The position numbers and the translations under genes were made by a program. Below, one piece after another: positions 5,727 to 53,481 of a stretch of 64,000 nucleotides of DNA. The stretch is from Flavobacterium sedimenticola (lineage in GTDB: Bacteria; Bacteroidota; Bacteroidia; Flavobacteriales; Flavobacteriaceae), in assembly GCF_030053345.1 (NCBI RefSeq), contig NZ_JASGBP010000001.1:682001-746000 (forward strand). Direction: 5' to 3'. Under the pieces are notes generated by a model. The model was given only the letters and a program-made list of their open reading frames with translations. It did not search any database and had not been told where the DNA came from. Positions within the stretch are counted from its first letter, which is position 1, and the number at the start of each line of letters is the position of its first letter.

Positions 5727-5776
5727 CTGCAAAAAATGGAAAGTTTACGTTCTGATTTTTTGCAGTAAAAAGAAAA
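5717..5776. repeat. Inverted repeat linking the tRNA terminator to the tandem array
   Basis: The stretch 5717-5738 (TTTTCTTTTTACTGCAAAAAA plus one base) is the reverse complement of 5755-5776 in the first tandem unit. The spacer is about 16 bp. The second arm is repeated in each of the three tandem units. Confidence 0.85.
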
Positions 5777-6046
5777 TAGCCATTTCTAATGGCGGGTTTT
5801 CGACGACAGAATTCCCGTTGTGGATCACCGCAGGTAATCCCGAGTTTACGTTCTGATTTTTTGCAGTAAAAAGAAAATAGCCATTTCTAATGGCCGAGTT
5901 TTCGACGACAGAATTCCCGTTGTGAATCACCGCAGGTAATCCCGAGTTTACGTTCTGATTTTTTGCAGTAAAAAGAAAATAGCCATTTCTAATGGCCGGG
6001 TTTTCGACGACAGTATTCCCACTGCAGTTTACCGCAGGTTCCCGTT
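5743..6046. repeat. Three-copy 101/102-bp tandem repeat
   Basis: Units begin with GTTTACGTTCTG at 5743, 5844 and 5946 (periods 101 and 102). Units 1 and 2 differ at only a few bases. Unit 3 diverges in its last third. Each unit holds internal palindromes (GCCATT-TCT-AATGGC; CGGG...CCCG). A minus-strand open frame (5745-6053) is only a by-product of the repeat. The region 5689-6106 otherwise contains no gene. Confidence 0.95.
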
Positions 6047-23150: not shown

Positions 23151-26006
23151 ATGAAATACCATCACGAAAAAATCGAAGCCAAATGGCAACACTATTGGGC
23201 ACAAAACCAAACCTTTGCCGCTACCAATCAATCGGATAAACCCAAGTATTACGTCCTCGACATGTTTCCGTATCCCTCGGGAGCCGGTTTACACGTTGGG
23301 CATCCGCTGGGGTACATTGCGTCCGATATCGTAGCGCGCTACAAGCGTCACAAAGGCTTTAATGTGTTGCATCCGCAAGGCTATGATTCGTTTGGGTTGC
23401 CGGCCGAACAATACGCCATCCAAACCGGGCAACATCCCGAAAAAACCACCCGTGAAAACATTGCCCGGTACCGCGAGCAGTTGGATAAAATTGGGTTTTC
23501 CTTCGATTGGAGTCGCGAAGTGCGCACCTCTAATCCCGATTATTACAAACACACGCAATGGATTTTTATCCAACTCTTCAATTCGTGGTACAACCTCGAA
23601 ACCGATAAGGCCGAAGACATATCCGAATTAATCTCAATTTTCCAAAAAGCCGGAAACGCCACTGTTAAAGCCGTGTGCGACGACGATACCGAAATCTTTT
23701 TTCCGTCCGATTGGAATGCGTATTCCGAAGAAAAAAAGCAACAAATTCTCTTAAAATATCGATTGACCTATTTGGCCGAGACCGAAGTAAACTGGTGTCC
23801 GGCTCTGGGTACCGTATTGGCCAACGACGAAATCGTTAACGGTGTTTCCGAACGCGGCGGGCATCCGGTGATTCGCAAAAAAATGACCCAATGGTCCATG
23901 CGCATTTCCGCTTATGCCGAACGTTTATTGCAAGGCTTAGACACCATCGACTGGAGCGAATCCATCAAAGAATCACAACGCAATTGGATTGGAAAATCGG
24001 TTGGTGCCATGGTGAAGTTTAAAGTTCAAAACCCGCAACCCGCAACCCGCAACTCGGAACTTTTTATCGACGTTTTTACCACACGCCCCGACACCATCTT
24101 CGGCGTTACGTTTATGACTTTAGCGCCCGAGCACGAATTGGTGTCTCAGATTACTACGCCGGAGCAAAAAGCAGCCGTTGACGCGTACGTGGAAGCTACT
24201 GCCAAACGTTCGGAGCGCGATCGTATGGCCGATGTGAAAACCATATCCGGGGTGTTTACCGGCGCCTATGCCGAGCATCCGTTTACCAAAGAGCCCATTC
24301 CGGTTTGGATAGGTGATTACGTGTTAGCCGGTTACGGCACCGGTGCCGTAATGGCCGTGCCTTGCGGCGATGAAAGAGATTACGCTTTTGCCAATTTCTT
24401 CAAAGGACAAAACGGCATGCCTGAAATCAAAAATATTTTCAATCAGGATATTTCGCAAGAAGCCTTTGCCGCCAAAGACGGTTTCGAATTGGTGAATTCC
24501 GATTTCTTGAACGGTTTAGGCTACAAAGAAGGCACTCAAAAAGCCATCGAAGCGTTAGAGCAAATCGGGCAGGGGAAAGGCAAAACCAATTACCGTTTGC
24601 GCGATGCGGTGTTCTCCCGCCAACGCTATTGGGGCGAACCGTTCCCGGTATATTACGTAAACGGCTTGCCGCAAATGATTGACTCGAAATACTTGCCTAT
24701 TGTTTTACCGGAAGTAGAAAAGTATTTGCCCACCGAAGACGGCCAACCGCCATTGGGCAACGCCACCCATTGGGCGTGGGACAGTGTGCAGTGTTCAGTA
24801 GTCAGTAATCAGTTGATTGACCACAAAACCATATTTCCTTTAGAACTTAACACTATGCCGGGTTGGGCCGGCAGCTCCTGGTATTGGATGCGCTATATGG
24901 ACGCGCACAACGACACCGAGTTTGCCTCAGCCGATGCGCTAAAATACTGGGAAAACGTCGATTTATACATCGGCGGAAGCGAACATGCCACCGGGCATTT
25001 GTTGTACTCGCGTTTTTGGAATAAATTCCTAAAAGACAAAGGTTTTGCGCCAACGGAAGAACCGTTTAAAAAGTTGATCAATCAGGGCATGATTTTGGGG
25101 ATGAGTGCGTTTGTGTATCGTTCTGAAGATTCCAAAAAATTATATTCAAAAGGATTGATTGCCGGTGAAAAAGTACACCCAATTCATGTTGATTTGTCTG
25201 TCATCAACGACATCACCAACGAATTAGACATCGACGCTTTCAAAAATCATCCGTTGTATTCCGACTATAAGGATGCTGAATTCATTTTAGAAAACGGCAA
25301 ATACATCGTAGGACGCGAAGTCGAAAAAATGTCGAAATCCAAATACAACGTGGTGAATCCCGACGATATCTGTGAACAATACGGCGCCGATACCTTGCGT
25401 TTATACGAAATGTTCCTCGGGCCGCTCGAACAAGCTAAACCTTGGAATACTGCCGGAATCACCGGAGTATCGGGCTTCTTAAAAAAACTGTGGCGTTTGT
25501 ATTTTGACGATAACGGTTTGATAGTGACCAACGACGAGCCAACGGCCGACATGTACAAAACACTCCACAAAACCATCAAAAAAGTGACGGAAGACATCGA
25601 GAACTTCTCGTTTAATACCTCGGTGTCGCAGTTTATGATTTGCGTAAACGAGTTGGCGCAGCAAAAATGCCGCCATCGTGCCATCTTAGAACCGTTGGCC
25701 ATCATCGTGTCGCCTTATGCGCCGCATATCGCCGAAGAATTGTGGGAACAATTGGGCCATCAAGGGTCGATTGCCACCGTGGCATTCCCCGTTTTTGAAG
25801 AAAAATACTTGGTGGAATCCGAAAAGGAATACCCGGTATCGTTTAACGGAAAAATGCGCTTTACCATCAAGTTGCCGCTCGATTTAACCGCTGCGCAAAT
25901 TGAGGAAATCGTCATGGCCGACGAACGCACCCAACAGCAACTGCAAGGCAGAACCCCCAATAAAGTGATTATCGTTCCCGGCAAAATCATCAATTTGGTG
26001 GGCTAA
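23151..26006 (+). CDS. leuS: Leucyl-tRNA synthetase
   Basis: 951 residues. Class I core with HIGH-like HVGHPLGY near residue 47 and KMSKS (EKMSKSKYN, around residue 727); CP1 editing domain with the TTRPDTIFG threonine-rich motif. The middle insertion before WCPALGTVLANDE is usual for Bacteroidetes LeuRS. Two short stretches are odd at DNA level: 24026-24060 and 24784-24816 are heptamer arrays read through in frame, the first adding roughly seven residues just before the editing motif. ATG start. Confidence 0.97.
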   Translation: MKYHHEKIEAKWQHYWAQNQTFAATNQSDKPKYYVLDMFPYPSGAGLHVGHPLGYIASDIVARYKRHKGFNVLHPQGYDSFGLPAEQYAIQTGQHPEKTTRENIARYREQLDKIGFSFDWSREVRTSNPDYYKHTQWIFIQLFNSWYNLETDKAEDISELISIFQKAGNATVKAVCDDDTEIFFPSDWNAYSEEKKQQILLKYRLTYLAETEVNWCPALGTVLANDEIVNGVSERGGHPVIRKKMTQWSMRISAYAERLLQGLDTIDWSESIKESQRNWIGKSVGAMVKFKVQNPQPATRNSELFIDVFTTRPDTIFGVTFMTLAPEHELVSQITTPEQKAAVDAYVEATAKRSERDRMADVKTISGVFTGAYAEHPFTKEPIPVWIGDYVLAGYGTGAVMAVPCGDERDYAFANFFKGQNGMPEIKNIFNQDISQEAFAAKDGFELVNSDFLNGLGYKEGTQKAIEALEQIGQGKGKTNYRLRDAVFSRQRYWGEPFPVYYVNGLPQMIDSKYLPIVLPEVEKYLPTEDGQPPLGNATHWAWDSVQCSVVSNQLIDHKTIFPLELNTMPGWAGSSWYWMRYMDAHNDTEFASADALKYWENVDLYIGGSEHATGHLLYSRFWNKFLKDKGFAPTEEPFKKLINQGMILGMSAFVYRSEDSKKLYSKGLIAGEKVHPIHVDLSVINDITNELDIDAFKNHPLYSDYKDAEFILENGKYIVGREVEKMSKSKYNVVNPDDICEQYGADTLRLYEMFLGPLEQAKPWNTAGITGVSGFLKKLWRLYFDDNGLIVTNDEPTADMYKTLHKTIKKVTEDIENFSFNTSVSQFMICVNELAQQKCRHRAILEPLAIIVSPYAPHIAEELWEQLGHQGSIATVAFPVFEEKYLVESEKEYPVSFNGKMRFTIKLPLDLTAAQIEEIVMADERTQQQLQGRTPNKVIIVPGKIINLVG
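24026..24060 (+). repeat. In-frame heptamer array inside leuS (CCCGCAA class), W6
   Basis: CCCGCAA repeated three times, then CTCGG. Encodes Q-N-P-Q-P-A-T-R-N-S-E between FKV and LFIDVFTTRPDT. The same heptamer is found outside genes at 27824-27867. Confidence 0.8.
24784..24816 (+). repeat. In-frame heptamer array inside leuS (CAGTnnT class), W7
   Basis: CAGTGTT, CAGTAGT, CAGTAAT, CAGTTGA, preceded by GTGTG. Encodes the variable segment S-V-Q-C-S-V-V-S-N-Q-L between WAWD and the conserved FPLELNTMPGWAG. Because the period is 7, successive units are read in different frames. Confidence 0.65.
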
Positions 26007-26916: not shown

Positions 26917-27618
26917 ATGTTAGGCTATTATATTTTAATCGGATTGATTGCTTTGGTCAGCTTTGCGGTAAGTTCCAAGCTGAAGAGCAAGTTTGACGAA
27001 TATTCGCATTTGCATTTACGCAATGGTATGAGTGGTGCCGAAATCGCCACACAAATGCTGAACGATCACGGGATTTATGACGTTAAAGTGATTTCCACCC
27101 CGGGACAATTAACAGACCATTACAACCCAACCGACAAAACGGTGAACTTGAGTGAAGGGGTGTACAACCAACGAAATGCTGCCGCCGCTGCCGTGGCGGC
27201 GCACGAGTGCGGACACGCTGTGCAACACGCCACAGCGTATAATATGTTGCAGTTGCGCTCGCAACTGGTTCCTATTGTGAACATCGCTTCGGGCATGTCA
27301 CAATGGTTGATTATCGGAGGGTTAATTTTAGGAGCCGCCGCCGGTTTAGGCTTGGGCTTTTACATCGCCGTAGCCGGATTGGTTTTGATGGCTATTGCCA
27401 CTGCGTTTAGTTTTATTACGCTGCCAGTGGAGTACGACGCCAGTAACCGTGCTTTGGCTTGGTTAAAAAATAAAAATATGGTGAGTCAGCAAGAATATGC
27501 CGGTGCCGAAGACGCTTTAAAATGGGCTGCCCGTACCTATGTGGTGGCCGCTATCGGAGCGCTGGCTTCGCTCTTGTATTGGGCGCTGCAAGTATTCGGA
27601 GGTTCCCGAGACGAATAA
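26917..27618 (+). CDS. Neutral zinc metallopeptidase, YugP/COG2738 family
   Basis: 233 residues. Zinc motif HECGHAVQH (H96-E-x2-H100) between a first TM (1-18) and two central hydrophobic segments (about 120-160), plus a C-terminal TM. This is the membrane-anchored YugP family, whose physiological substrate is not established. ATG start, 70 bp after the beta-barrel gene; followed by a strong terminator. Confidence 0.88.
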   Translation: MLGYYILIGLIALVSFAVSSKLKSKFDEYSHLHLRNGMSGAEIATQMLNDHGIYDVKVISTPGQLTDHYNPTDKTVNLSEGVYNQRNAAAAAVAAHECGHAVQHATAYNMLQLRSQLVPIVNIASGMSQWLIIGGLILGAAAGLGLGFYIAVAGLVLMAIATAFSFITLPVEYDASNRALAWLKNKNMVSQQEYAGAEDALKWAARTYVVAAIGALASLLYWALQVFGGSRDE

Positions 27619-27817: not shown

Positions 27818-27823
27818 CGACGA

Positions 27824-27867
27824 ACCCAGCAACTTTAAACCCGTAACTCGCAACCCGCAACTTTCAA
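27824..27867. repeat. Degenerate heptamer array (CCCGCAA class), W9
   Basis: CCCGTAA, CTCGCAA, CCCGCAA, CTTTCAA, CTA. It runs directly into the lrp stop codon (27868 on the minus strand). Same heptamer as W6 inside leuS. Confidence 0.75.
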
Positions 27868-28338
27868 CTAAAGTTGAATCTGACGTTCCAACTGTTGCTC
27901 TAACGAAATAAAAGTCTCCGTTCTCGAAACACCTTGAATGGGTTGGATTTTTTTGTTGAGCAATTGCATCAAATGTTCGTTGTCGCGGCAAATGATTTTG
28001 ATGAGAATACTCCAGTTGCCGGTAGTGTAGTGGCATTCTAACACTTCGGGAATTTTTTTGAGTTCGCGCACGGCATCGGAGTTGCTCGAGGCTTTGTCGA
28101 GGTAAATCCCGATAAACGCCATGGTTTTGTAACCTAAGACTTTGTTGTCAATCACAAATTTGGAGCCCGAAATAACGCCGGCCTCTTCGAGTTTGCGCAG
28201 GCGTTGGTGAATGGCTGCACCGGAAATTCCGATTTTGTTGGCGATTTGTAAAATGGGTTTTCGGGCATCTTCCATGAGGTCGCGCAGGATTTCTTTGTCG
28301 ATGCCGTCTATCTCTATTTGTAGCTGGTTAATTTTCAT
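27868..28338 (-). CDS. Lrp/AsnC family transcriptional regulator
   Basis: 156 residues: N-terminal winged-helix DNA-binding domain (about 1-60; I-D-x-x-I-L-R-D-L-M-E-D-A-R and I-S-x-x-x-I-H-Q-R-L-R-K-L-E-E-x-G-V-I) and C-terminal RAM ligand-binding domain (about 70-150). Such proteins sense amino acids. The next gene upstream is a saccharopine dehydrogenase-like enzyme on the same strand, so a role in lysine or other amino-acid metabolism is possible but inferred. An inverted repeat just upstream may be an autoregulatory site. Confidence 0.93.
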   Translation of the reverse strand: MKINQLQIEIDGIDKEILRDLMEDARKPILQIANKIGISGAAIHQRLRKLEEAGVISGSKFVIDNKVLGYKTMAFIGIYLDKASSNSDAVRELKKIPEVLECHYTTGNWSILIKIICRDNEHLMQLLNKKIQPIQGVSRTETFISLEQQLERQIQL

Positions 28339-52099: not shown

Positions 52100-52129
52100 A
52101 ACTTTTCCCTTTTCCCTTTTCCCTTTTAA
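52100..52129. repeat. Short heptamer array (TTTTCCC class), W12
   Basis: TTTTCCC three times plus TTTT, in the spacer between the ATL and Mrp genes. Single-arm relative of W8 after leuS. Confidence 0.7.
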
Positions 52130-52203: not shown

Positions 52204-53340
52204 ATGAAATTAGATAGAAAAGAAATTTTGGCTGCTTTGGAAACCATTACCATTGCAGGCGAGGGAAAGAATATGGTCGAAAGCGGTGCGGTAAAAAACG
52301 TGCTCACTTTCGGTAACGAAGTGGTCGTTGATTTAGTCATTACGACTCCGGCCATGCACATCAAAAAGCGTGCGGAAGACGATATCAAAAAACTCATCCA
52401 TGACCGATTTTCACCCGACGCTGTGGTAAAAGTCAACATCAAAGTGGAAACACCCGAGCAAAACCCAAATCAAATCAAAGGCAAAGCCATTCCGGGCATC
52501 AGCAACATTATTGCGGTAGCTTCGGGAAAAGGCGGTGTTGGGAAATCAACGGTTACCGCAAATTTGGCGGTTACTTTAGCCAAAATGGGCTTTAAAGTGG
52601 GCGTGTTAGATGCCGATATTTACGGACCAAGTATGCCGATAATGTTTGATGTGGAAAACGAAAAACCGCTTTCTGTTGAAGTCGACGGCAAATCGAAAAT
52701 GAAACCCATCGAAAGCTACGAAATCAAATTGCTTTCCATCGGTTTCTTCACGGCGCCGAGTCAGGCGGTGATTTGGCGCGGCCCTATGGCGGCCAAAGCC
52801 TTGAACCAAATGATTTTTGACGCGGCCTGGGGCGAACTCGATTTTATGTTAATCGATTTACCTCCGGGAACGGGCGATATCCACTTGTCCATCATGCAAT
52901 CCTTGCCAATCACCGGTGCTGTGGTGGTGAGTACACCGCAAGCGGTGGCTTTAGCCGATGCCAAAAAAGGCGTTTCCATGTTCCAATCCGATAGTATCAA
53001 CGTTCCCGTGTTGGGCATCATCGAAAACATGGCCTATTTTACTCCGGAAGAACTCCCGAATAACAAATATTACATCTTCGGCAAAGAAGGTGCTAAAAAC
53101 TTGGCGGCCGATTTGAATGTGCCGTTTTTGGGCGAAGTACCCTTGGTACAAAGCATCCGCGAAGCCGGAGATTACGGCCGTCCTGCGGCTTTACAAACCG
53201 CTTCGGTCATCGAAACCGTATTTGAAGAAATCACCCGAAATGTAGTACAGGAAACGGTAAACCGTAACGAAACCTTACCACCTACCGAGGCGATTAAAAT
53301 AACCACCATGGCCGGTTGTTCGGCTGTTAAAGGGAAATAA
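52204..53340 (+). CDS. Mrp/NBP35-type Fe-S cluster carrier ATPase
   Basis: 378 residues: N-terminal MIP18/DUF59-like domain (about 1-90), then the ParA/MinD-like ATPase with deviant P-loop SGKGGVGKST at 107-116, DADIYGPS (Walker A'), and DLPPGTGD. ApbC/Mrp proteins carry and deliver [4Fe-4S] clusters. The C-terminal C-x-x-C is not obvious here, only T-M-A-G-C-S-A-V-K. Precedes nifU-like and ferredoxin genes, consistent with Fe-S assembly. Confidence 0.93.
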   Translation: MKLDRKEILAALETITIAGEGKNMVESGAVKNVLTFGNEVVVDLVITTPAMHIKKRAEDDIKKLIHDRFSPDAVVKVNIKVETPEQNPNQIKGKAIPGISNIIAVASGKGGVGKSTVTANLAVTLAKMGFKVGVLDADIYGPSMPIMFDVENEKPLSVEVDGKSKMKPIESYEIKLLSIGFFTAPSQAVIWRGPMAAKALNQMIFDAAWGELDFMLIDLPPGTGDIHLSIMQSLPITGAVVVSTPQAVALADAKKGVSMFQSDSINVPVLGIIENMAYFTPEELPNNKYYIFGKEGAKNLAADLNVPFLGEVPLVQSIREAGDYGRPAALQTASVIETVFEEITRNVVQETVNRNETLPPTEAIKITTMAGCSAVKGK

Positions 53341-53342
53341 AA

Positions 53343-53481
53343 TAATGTATCAATTAAACAATGTATCAATTAAGCAATGTAACAATTAAGCAATGTAGCA
53401 ATTAAACAATTCAATTGTAACATTTATACATTGCTACATTTACACATTGCTACATTTACACATTGCTACATTTACACATTA
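53343..53481. repeat. Two-armed octamer array (CAATnnAn class), W13
   Basis: Left arm: four 16-bp pairs of octamers (CAATGTAT CAATTAAA, CAATGTAA CAATTAAG, CAATGTAG CAATTAAA...). Right arm: CATTGCTA CATTTACA three times from 53429 with exact 16-bp period. The arms share the complementary core ATTGCTACATT. It fills the spacer from 2 bp after the Mrp stop to 5 bp before the nifU-like ATG. Confidence 0.9.

Follow-up and report, generated by a model that had tools for sequence, protein, structure and literature searches.

The leuS gene of Flavobacterium sedimenticola, which codes for the leucyl-tRNA synthetase (LeuRS), lies in a stretch of 64,000 nt (contig NZ_JASGBP010000001.1, positions 682,001 to 746,000), hereafter called the window, and carries in the region of its editing domain a tandem array of a 7-nt word that is translated in frame. 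This array had been described in an earlier note made from the sequence alone, and our analysis confirmed it, with the limits given in Table 1. The array begins in phase with codon 294 and its product is NPQPATRNSE followed by L. Tandem Repeats Finder (TRF) called it from 24030 to 24053, with 3.4 copies, 100% match and units of exactly 7 nt, and among 100 Markov copies of the window (first order) none had an exact period-7 run of 24 nt. Despite the array, the leuS frame is intact, with the catalytic, editing and anticodon domains of LeuRS all detected by Pfam in the open frame. As read from the sequence, the array itself is non-palindromic, with no arms that could pair into a hairpin; it lies within a perfect 7-bp inverted repeat, AAAGTTC/GAACTTT.

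A second array in the same gene, missed by the earlier note, is built from the degenerate word TCAGTNN, which is related to TAACTGA/TCAGTTA; we refer to it as site D and to the AACCCGC array as site A. The earlier note had also placed the heptamer of site A outside genes, at 27824–27867. An intergenic array is indeed present there, between the ends of the open reading frames (ORFs) at 26917–27618 (forward strand) and 27868–28338 (reverse strand), but it reads AACCCGTAACTCGCAACCCGCAAC, with one exact CCCGCAA and two variants, and the longer span corresponds only to a TRF call (27823–27868) of period 14 with 75% matches.

Table 1. Features of leuS and its surroundings in the window (positions in nt), and loci that carry the DUF559 domain in frame
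Feature	Position or loci	Strand	Basis
leuS, leucyl-tRNA synthetase, 951 aa	23151..26006	+	open frame; Pfam PF13603, PF00133, PF08264
LeuRS editing domain (PF13603, residues 277–469)	23979..24557	+	Pfam; AlphaFold2 model of residues 267–495
Left arm AAAGTTC of 7-bp inverted repeat around the leuS array	24021..24027	+	sequence
Site A: in-frame heptamer array, AACCCGC x3 + AACTCGG + AAC, codons 294–304	24030..24060	+	sequence, TRF
Right arm GAACTTT of 7-bp inverted repeat around the leuS array	24057..24063	+	sequence
Site D: second in-frame heptamer array of leuS, TCAGTNN family, about codons 544–555	24782..24813	+	TRF, sequence
Intergenic copy of the AACCCGN heptamer family	27838..27861	+	sequence, TRF
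DUF559 in frame in leuS	L143, L166, L172–L176
DUF559 in frame in metH	L191–L197, L199, L200, L202–L204
DUF559 in frame in recG	L210, L212, L215, L217
DUF559 in frame in UvrD-type helicase	L206, L207, L213, L216

Alignment with the LeuRS of Thermus thermophilus (1h3n) left a 7-residue gap at the array. In an AlphaFold2 model of residues 267–495 (predicted local distance difference test, pLDDT, 77.5; predicted template modelling score, pTM, 0.77), a strand (280–293) leads into a loop (294–304) and a second strand (305–310), and the solved structures that best matched this model were LeuRS editing domains (Z 21.7–24.4 among the 50 matches listed), so that the array peptide is predicted to form the tip of a β-hairpin of the editing domain. 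This agrees with the surface loop expected in the earlier note. The full-length AlphaFold model was poor (pLDDT 65.5, pTM 0.42) and was used only for local agreement.

The leuS loop in relatives and the distribution of coding arrays

The leuS gene was read at 176 loci, made up of the best 80 of 589 related loci and 96 from a sample of the genus; they represent 155 distinct genes. In 90 of the 176 rows the loop that holds site A was 22 aa long, and 86 rows had a longer one; the window's loop is 29 aa by our own measure, in keeping with the earlier claim that this loop is shorter in other LeuRS proteins. Period-7 arrays were found in the loop of 43 of the 155 distinct genes, and periods 4–6 and 8–12 in none. 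The repeat is one of the DNA level, its period of 7 being no multiple of three. An expansion of the coding type was ruled out, since periods 6, 9 and 12 were found at site A in 0/155 genes, and a chance origin of the array was ruled out by the shuffles and the period spectrum.

The 43 array-bearing genes contained 18 words, some of them mutually similar (AAACTTG in 13, AAAGTCG in 6, AACAACC in 4, AACTTCC in 3 and others in fewer), while the nearest relative read (G082, locus L082, 91% identity) has no array and shows GASVDFRLKNGEGTISVF at that point; variation of the word among relatives had been predicted. On a FastTree tree of 154 of the 155 distinct genes (732 columns, variable sites and loops excluded, one truncated gene left out), the presence or absence of an array required at least 31 changes. 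We also sampled 99 other genera of the family, one genome each, of which 3 were not fetched; 92 of the 96 loci matched the search expression. Sixty-four of these 92 loops were of base length, five held period-7 arrays and none held another period. The residues of the window's loop, whose presence in distant Flavobacteriaceae the earlier note had named as evidence against itself, were found in 0 of the 92. A conserved feature of LeuRS was ruled out by the 22-aa loops among the 176 rows and the base-length loops of the other genera. The word 'insert', used in that note, is not always right, as some arrays occupy loops of normal length.

The long loops could also be thought of as a functional insertion maintained by selection, for instance to tune editing or tRNA binding, since the tip sits on the editing domain and about half of the rows (86/176) exceed 22 aa. 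However, the peptides of different lineages share little beyond DNA period 7 or palindromy, 90 of the rows manage with 22 aa, and whole nuclease domains occur at the same point, and we consider a selected insertion very improbable.

In leuS as a whole, period-7 arrays were found at site A (43/155) and site D (18/155); sites B and C and the remainder of the gene had none. The surroundings were examined in 81 sources, namely 80 named leuS loci and the window, with ORFs of at least 150 codons called mechanically; arrays that straddle an edge may have gone uncounted. Twenty-seven period-7 arrays lay in leuS, 25 outside ORFs and none in 332,240 b of other ORFs, while the other periods from 5 to 12 gave 0–2 arrays per period in ORFs and 0–6 outside. 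Therefore, leuS is a harbour and no random victim. The idea that coding DNA of these genomes harbours arrays in general was ruled out, by the same zero, for the genes next to leuS.

AroA is a stronger case of such a harbour than leuS. Period 7 was present in 29 of 30 stop-to-stop frames, spread over about four loops, with period 8 in two and other periods in none; the sample (L251–L280) comprised the 30 best-scoring of 101 genomes, two of them with a stop inside the match. The AroA of the window's own genome also has a palindrome-like loop, SPPLEGSPKGG.

Two further observations concern the array loops and the rest of leuS. Heptamers form inverted pairs (a forward array, a short spacer and a reverse array) in the leuS loops of L024, L049 and L065, and inverted pairs of arrays are also found at G075:C16:594587/594635 and G053:C3:384909/384954; all of these could form hairpins. 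A hypervariable segment lies at residues ~652–680 of LeuRS (window 25104–25190), near SAFVYR...PIHV; it is 29 aa long in 98 of the 155 distinct genes and 44–126 aa, barely alignable, in 55, and has the look of a rapidly evolving domain, possibly one engaged in an arms race.

The dispersed heptamer of the genome and the probable origin of the leuS array

We compared the window's own genome (G000, 3.14 Mb) with 100 genus-mates, 101 genomes in all. The repeated word, with up to 3 mismatches allowed, occurs at 94 sites in G000, as compared with 3 for the reversed word. Exact sites of AACCCGCAACCCGCAAC (the AACCCGC word) number 12 in G000, one in each of two genus-mates and none in the other 98. 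In 210,824 b of G000 sequence, made up of the window and 25 stretches chosen for array hits, we found 39 arrays of the AACCCGN family and none of the reversed word. About eight of the 39 lie in frame within genes, according to our reading of the translations: leuS, metH (in the loop before LTLRQQ), aroA (three arrays), a ketoacyl synthase, the N-terminus of an enzyme of Cys/Met metabolism and one unassigned ORF. Pfam confirmed the host families EPSP synthase, ketoacyl synthase, methionine synthase and Cys/Met. Copies of the repeat are spread over the genome; those in the coding DNA examined are retained at few tolerant loops in a small number of enzymes. The earlier proposal that a housekeeping enzyme had absorbed an array where its loop tolerates one was thus supported, and even understated, since capture is recurrent in leuS, the same word was captured in metH, aroA and a ketoacyl synthase, and palindromes and DUF559 domains entered the same loops.

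Taken together, we consider it likely that the leuS array derives from the dispersed heptamer repeat of its own genome (AAC-C/T-CG-N), of which a copy became lodged in frame in a surface turn of the editing-domain β-hairpin. Replication slippage would multiply the heptamer units, and words would spread between sites by copying from existing arrays, through template switching or gene conversion and with no dedicated enzyme. Such copies could survive given a stop-free sense strand, a net length that keeps the frame and a polar, loop-like peptide such as NPQPATR, and selection would remove them except in leaders, intergenic DNA and tolerant loops. At the tolerant hairpin tip of LeuRS, the heptamer copy may have grown in place or been copied in, and we propose no function of its own for it.

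The distribution of identical words bears on the copying step. For three words with six carrier genomes, the carriers ranked 1, 1, 1, 5, 9 and 13 of 101 in the number of copies outside the leuS and metH loops, a result matched by none of 20,000 random assignments; these counts still include copies in aroA or other genes, and carriers in metH could be recognized only within the 38 loci read. These 38 loci came from 90 genomes with a match, eight of them having been chosen for DUF559 and one gene having been read twice (L203 and L244). In two genomes, G000 and G032, one word is present in both leuS and metH. The ranks and the shared word favour copying within the genome, a step that we infer, over independent growth.

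Growth in place is the alternative at issue here: the array could have arisen by local slippage from a chance seed, its likeness to other arrays being convergence by shared mutational bias. Arrays that fill base-length loops (L073, L333, L343) fit this proposal, and Mrazek (2007), as cited in PMC4679880, found heptamers to be the commonest class of long simple repeat in most genomes. However, the exact AACCCGC word is shared by leuS, metH, aroA, a ketoacyl synthase and leaders of G000 and is nearly absent from the 100 congeners, and one common word is not expected from independent seeds. Local slippage by itself therefore seems an unlikely origin.

Several observations nevertheless weigh against a copy of the dispersed repeat. 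The array fills a base-length loop in 4 of the 43 genus genes and in 4 of the 5 family genes (including the three loci named above), and therefore in-place growth or replacement also happens. Few other copies are present in the carriers G032 and G030, which hold ranks 9 and 13. Of nine G000 sites outside the leuS and metH loops, about five lie in aroA and the ketoacyl synthase, and exact non-coding copies are therefore few. The GTCNAAAGTC word occurs in 58 of the 101 genomes, and its reversed control is itself a common heptamer. Period 8 was found in 14 leuS segments outside the sites and period 5 in five genes at site D. Finally, 16 of the 39 G000 arrays lie in sense orientation no more than 75 nt upstream of a start codon, as compared with 4 of 39 in antisense and 1033 of 20,000 (5.2%) at random, a placement that a purely passive repeat does not obviously explain. 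The leader arrays at loci L177–L190 and L377–L385 of G000 stand 5–65 nt upstream of starts, in sense and far above chance.

This placement would be expected if the arrays were bound by a post-transcriptional or translational regulator, with the copies in leuS, metH and aroA belonging to its regulon. The hosts do lean towards amino-acid genes (leuS, metH, aroA and the leader of an ORF read as a putative metF), and PMC4679880 gives a like placement and the same idea for TAACTGA in Beggiatoaceae. Nonetheless, at one loop congeners carry 18 different words, a variety that a conserved binding protein would not track, the leuS loop also houses palindromes and nuclease domains, the list of hosts is short, and other G000 leader arrays precede unrelated genes (RNase E/G family, DUF58 and a response regulator). 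We regard a regulon of this kind as quite unlikely.

Palindromes and DUF559 domains in the same loops

In seven of the 176 rows, the leuS loop reaches 135–192 aa and contains a DUF559 domain, presumably a PD-(D/E)XK-like endonuclease. The two copies scanned with Pfam gave E values of 6e-33 and 1e-34, PF04480 hits fell inside the leuS frame in all seven genomes, and one genome (G016) has two DUF559 domains. The six DUF559-bearing rows kept on the tree required six changes, and four more such loops were recognized among the 92 of other genera by reading translations. Site C of leuS (residues 418–445) likewise holds palindromes and a second DUF559, with no heptamers. When DUF559 loci were fetched, 28 of 30 showed the motif, 23 in long frames (12 MetH, 4 RecG, 4 UvrD-type helicase and 3 LeuRS) and the other 5 in short frames that stand alone; Pfam confirmed two MetH hosts, one RecG and one UvrD-type, and the remainder were named by likeness. 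The window's own genome has one DUF559, in recG (L210, G000:C20:309610). In L204, an element at a second MetH site is pared to its two ends.

Palindromes flank six of the seven leuS copies by eye (not L172). A scripted search of the 28 loci for perfect stems of at least 7 bp with over half G+C found hairpins flanking the domain on both sides at 5 loci and on a single side at 4, and none at the remaining 19, a group that includes all 12 MetH loci, though their end peptides look alike. Of 155 relatives, 13 had palindrome motifs at the leuS loop (5 of these 13 also carry DUF559), and a bare palindrome occupies site A in L069, L007, L026 and others. The MetH loop, too, holds palindromes or a whole DUF559 nuclease domain in relatives. 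In L351 (the leuS of G129), the same loop reads as two different palindromic repeats in succession.

It is conceivable, although we hold it to be doubtful, that the DUF559 endonuclease and its flanking palindromes, which resemble repetitive extragenic palindromic (REP) sequences, constitute a mobile element of Flavobacteriaceae that inserts in frame and without splicing into hairpin tips and linkers of LeuRS, MetH, RecG and a UvrD-type helicase, and that bare palindromes and heptamer arrays enter by copying at breaks which the nuclease makes or repairs there. We set this possibility lower because scripted hairpins were absent from both sides in 19 of the 28 loci. If it held, the window's array would be one of several repeat classes that use break-prone, tolerant loops.

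Other tandem arrays called by TRF in the window comprise a 102-nt unit repeated 2.7 times (5742–6020), CTTTTCC repeated 3.7 times (52102–52127) and two adjoining 16-nt arrays (53336–53480).

Comparison with known systems

Heptamer arrays and in-frame repeat insertions are each already known; their meeting in core enzymes was found in no paper searched, and no report of heptamers or DUF559 in LeuRS, MetH or AroA stood among the matches listed in the literature search. What this meeting indicates is that certain loops of proteins serve as shelters for spreading DNA and that a 7-nt repeat has moulded loops of highly conserved enzymes again and again, with a clean signature (period 7 alone) at the leuS loop. 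For repeats in coding DNA, Mrazek (2007), as cited in PMC4679880, reported multiples of three as the most likely unit lengths. In these loops nature has kept a record of the places in proteins that accept new sequence and of the way short repeats pass from site to site, and LeuRS and MetH, whose loops also take palindromes and nuclease domains, together with AroA, are test objects for selfish DNA turning into protein. For annotation, there is a risk that such loops are mistaken for functional insertions.

Inteins and free-standing homing endonucleases place nuclease-like frames within conserved genes at recurring positions. The DUF559 insertions resemble them in both respects, but Pfam reported no splicing domain around DUF559 in the six host proteins scanned (no search aimed at such a domain was made), and palindromes flank some copies.

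The STRR sequences of cyanobacteria are heptanucleotide tandem arrays. Satellites more generally are surveyed in PMC6749651. As described in PMC4679880, TAACTGA heptamers occur in Beggiatoaceae, cyanobacteria and some Bacteroidetes, lie mostly upstream of start codons in the main genome, and include one array in an RNA polymerase beta-prime-like protein, within a variable region equivalent to a surface loop. Our arrays share with these heptanucleotide systems the period of 7 and the short, dispersed and mostly extragenic arrays, many of them just upstream of starts, and the TCAGTNN word of site D resembles the reverse complement of TAACTGA. In contrast to the account in PMC4679880, the word here is AACCCGN and differs between species, arrays recur in frame in LeuRS, MetH, AroA and a ketoacyl synthase, and the same loops of LeuRS, MetH and AroA are hit in many lineages.

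In-frame Rickettsia palindromic elements (RPE) are reviewed in PMC10969869. As presented there, they too are repeats scattered in the genome that insert in frame into unrelated housekeeping genes and are translated with them. However, RPE are about 150 bp long with a conserved peptide, whereas the window array is a 31-nt tandem repeat that lacks a hairpin of its own, and in Flavobacteriaceae several unrelated repeat types share one loop.

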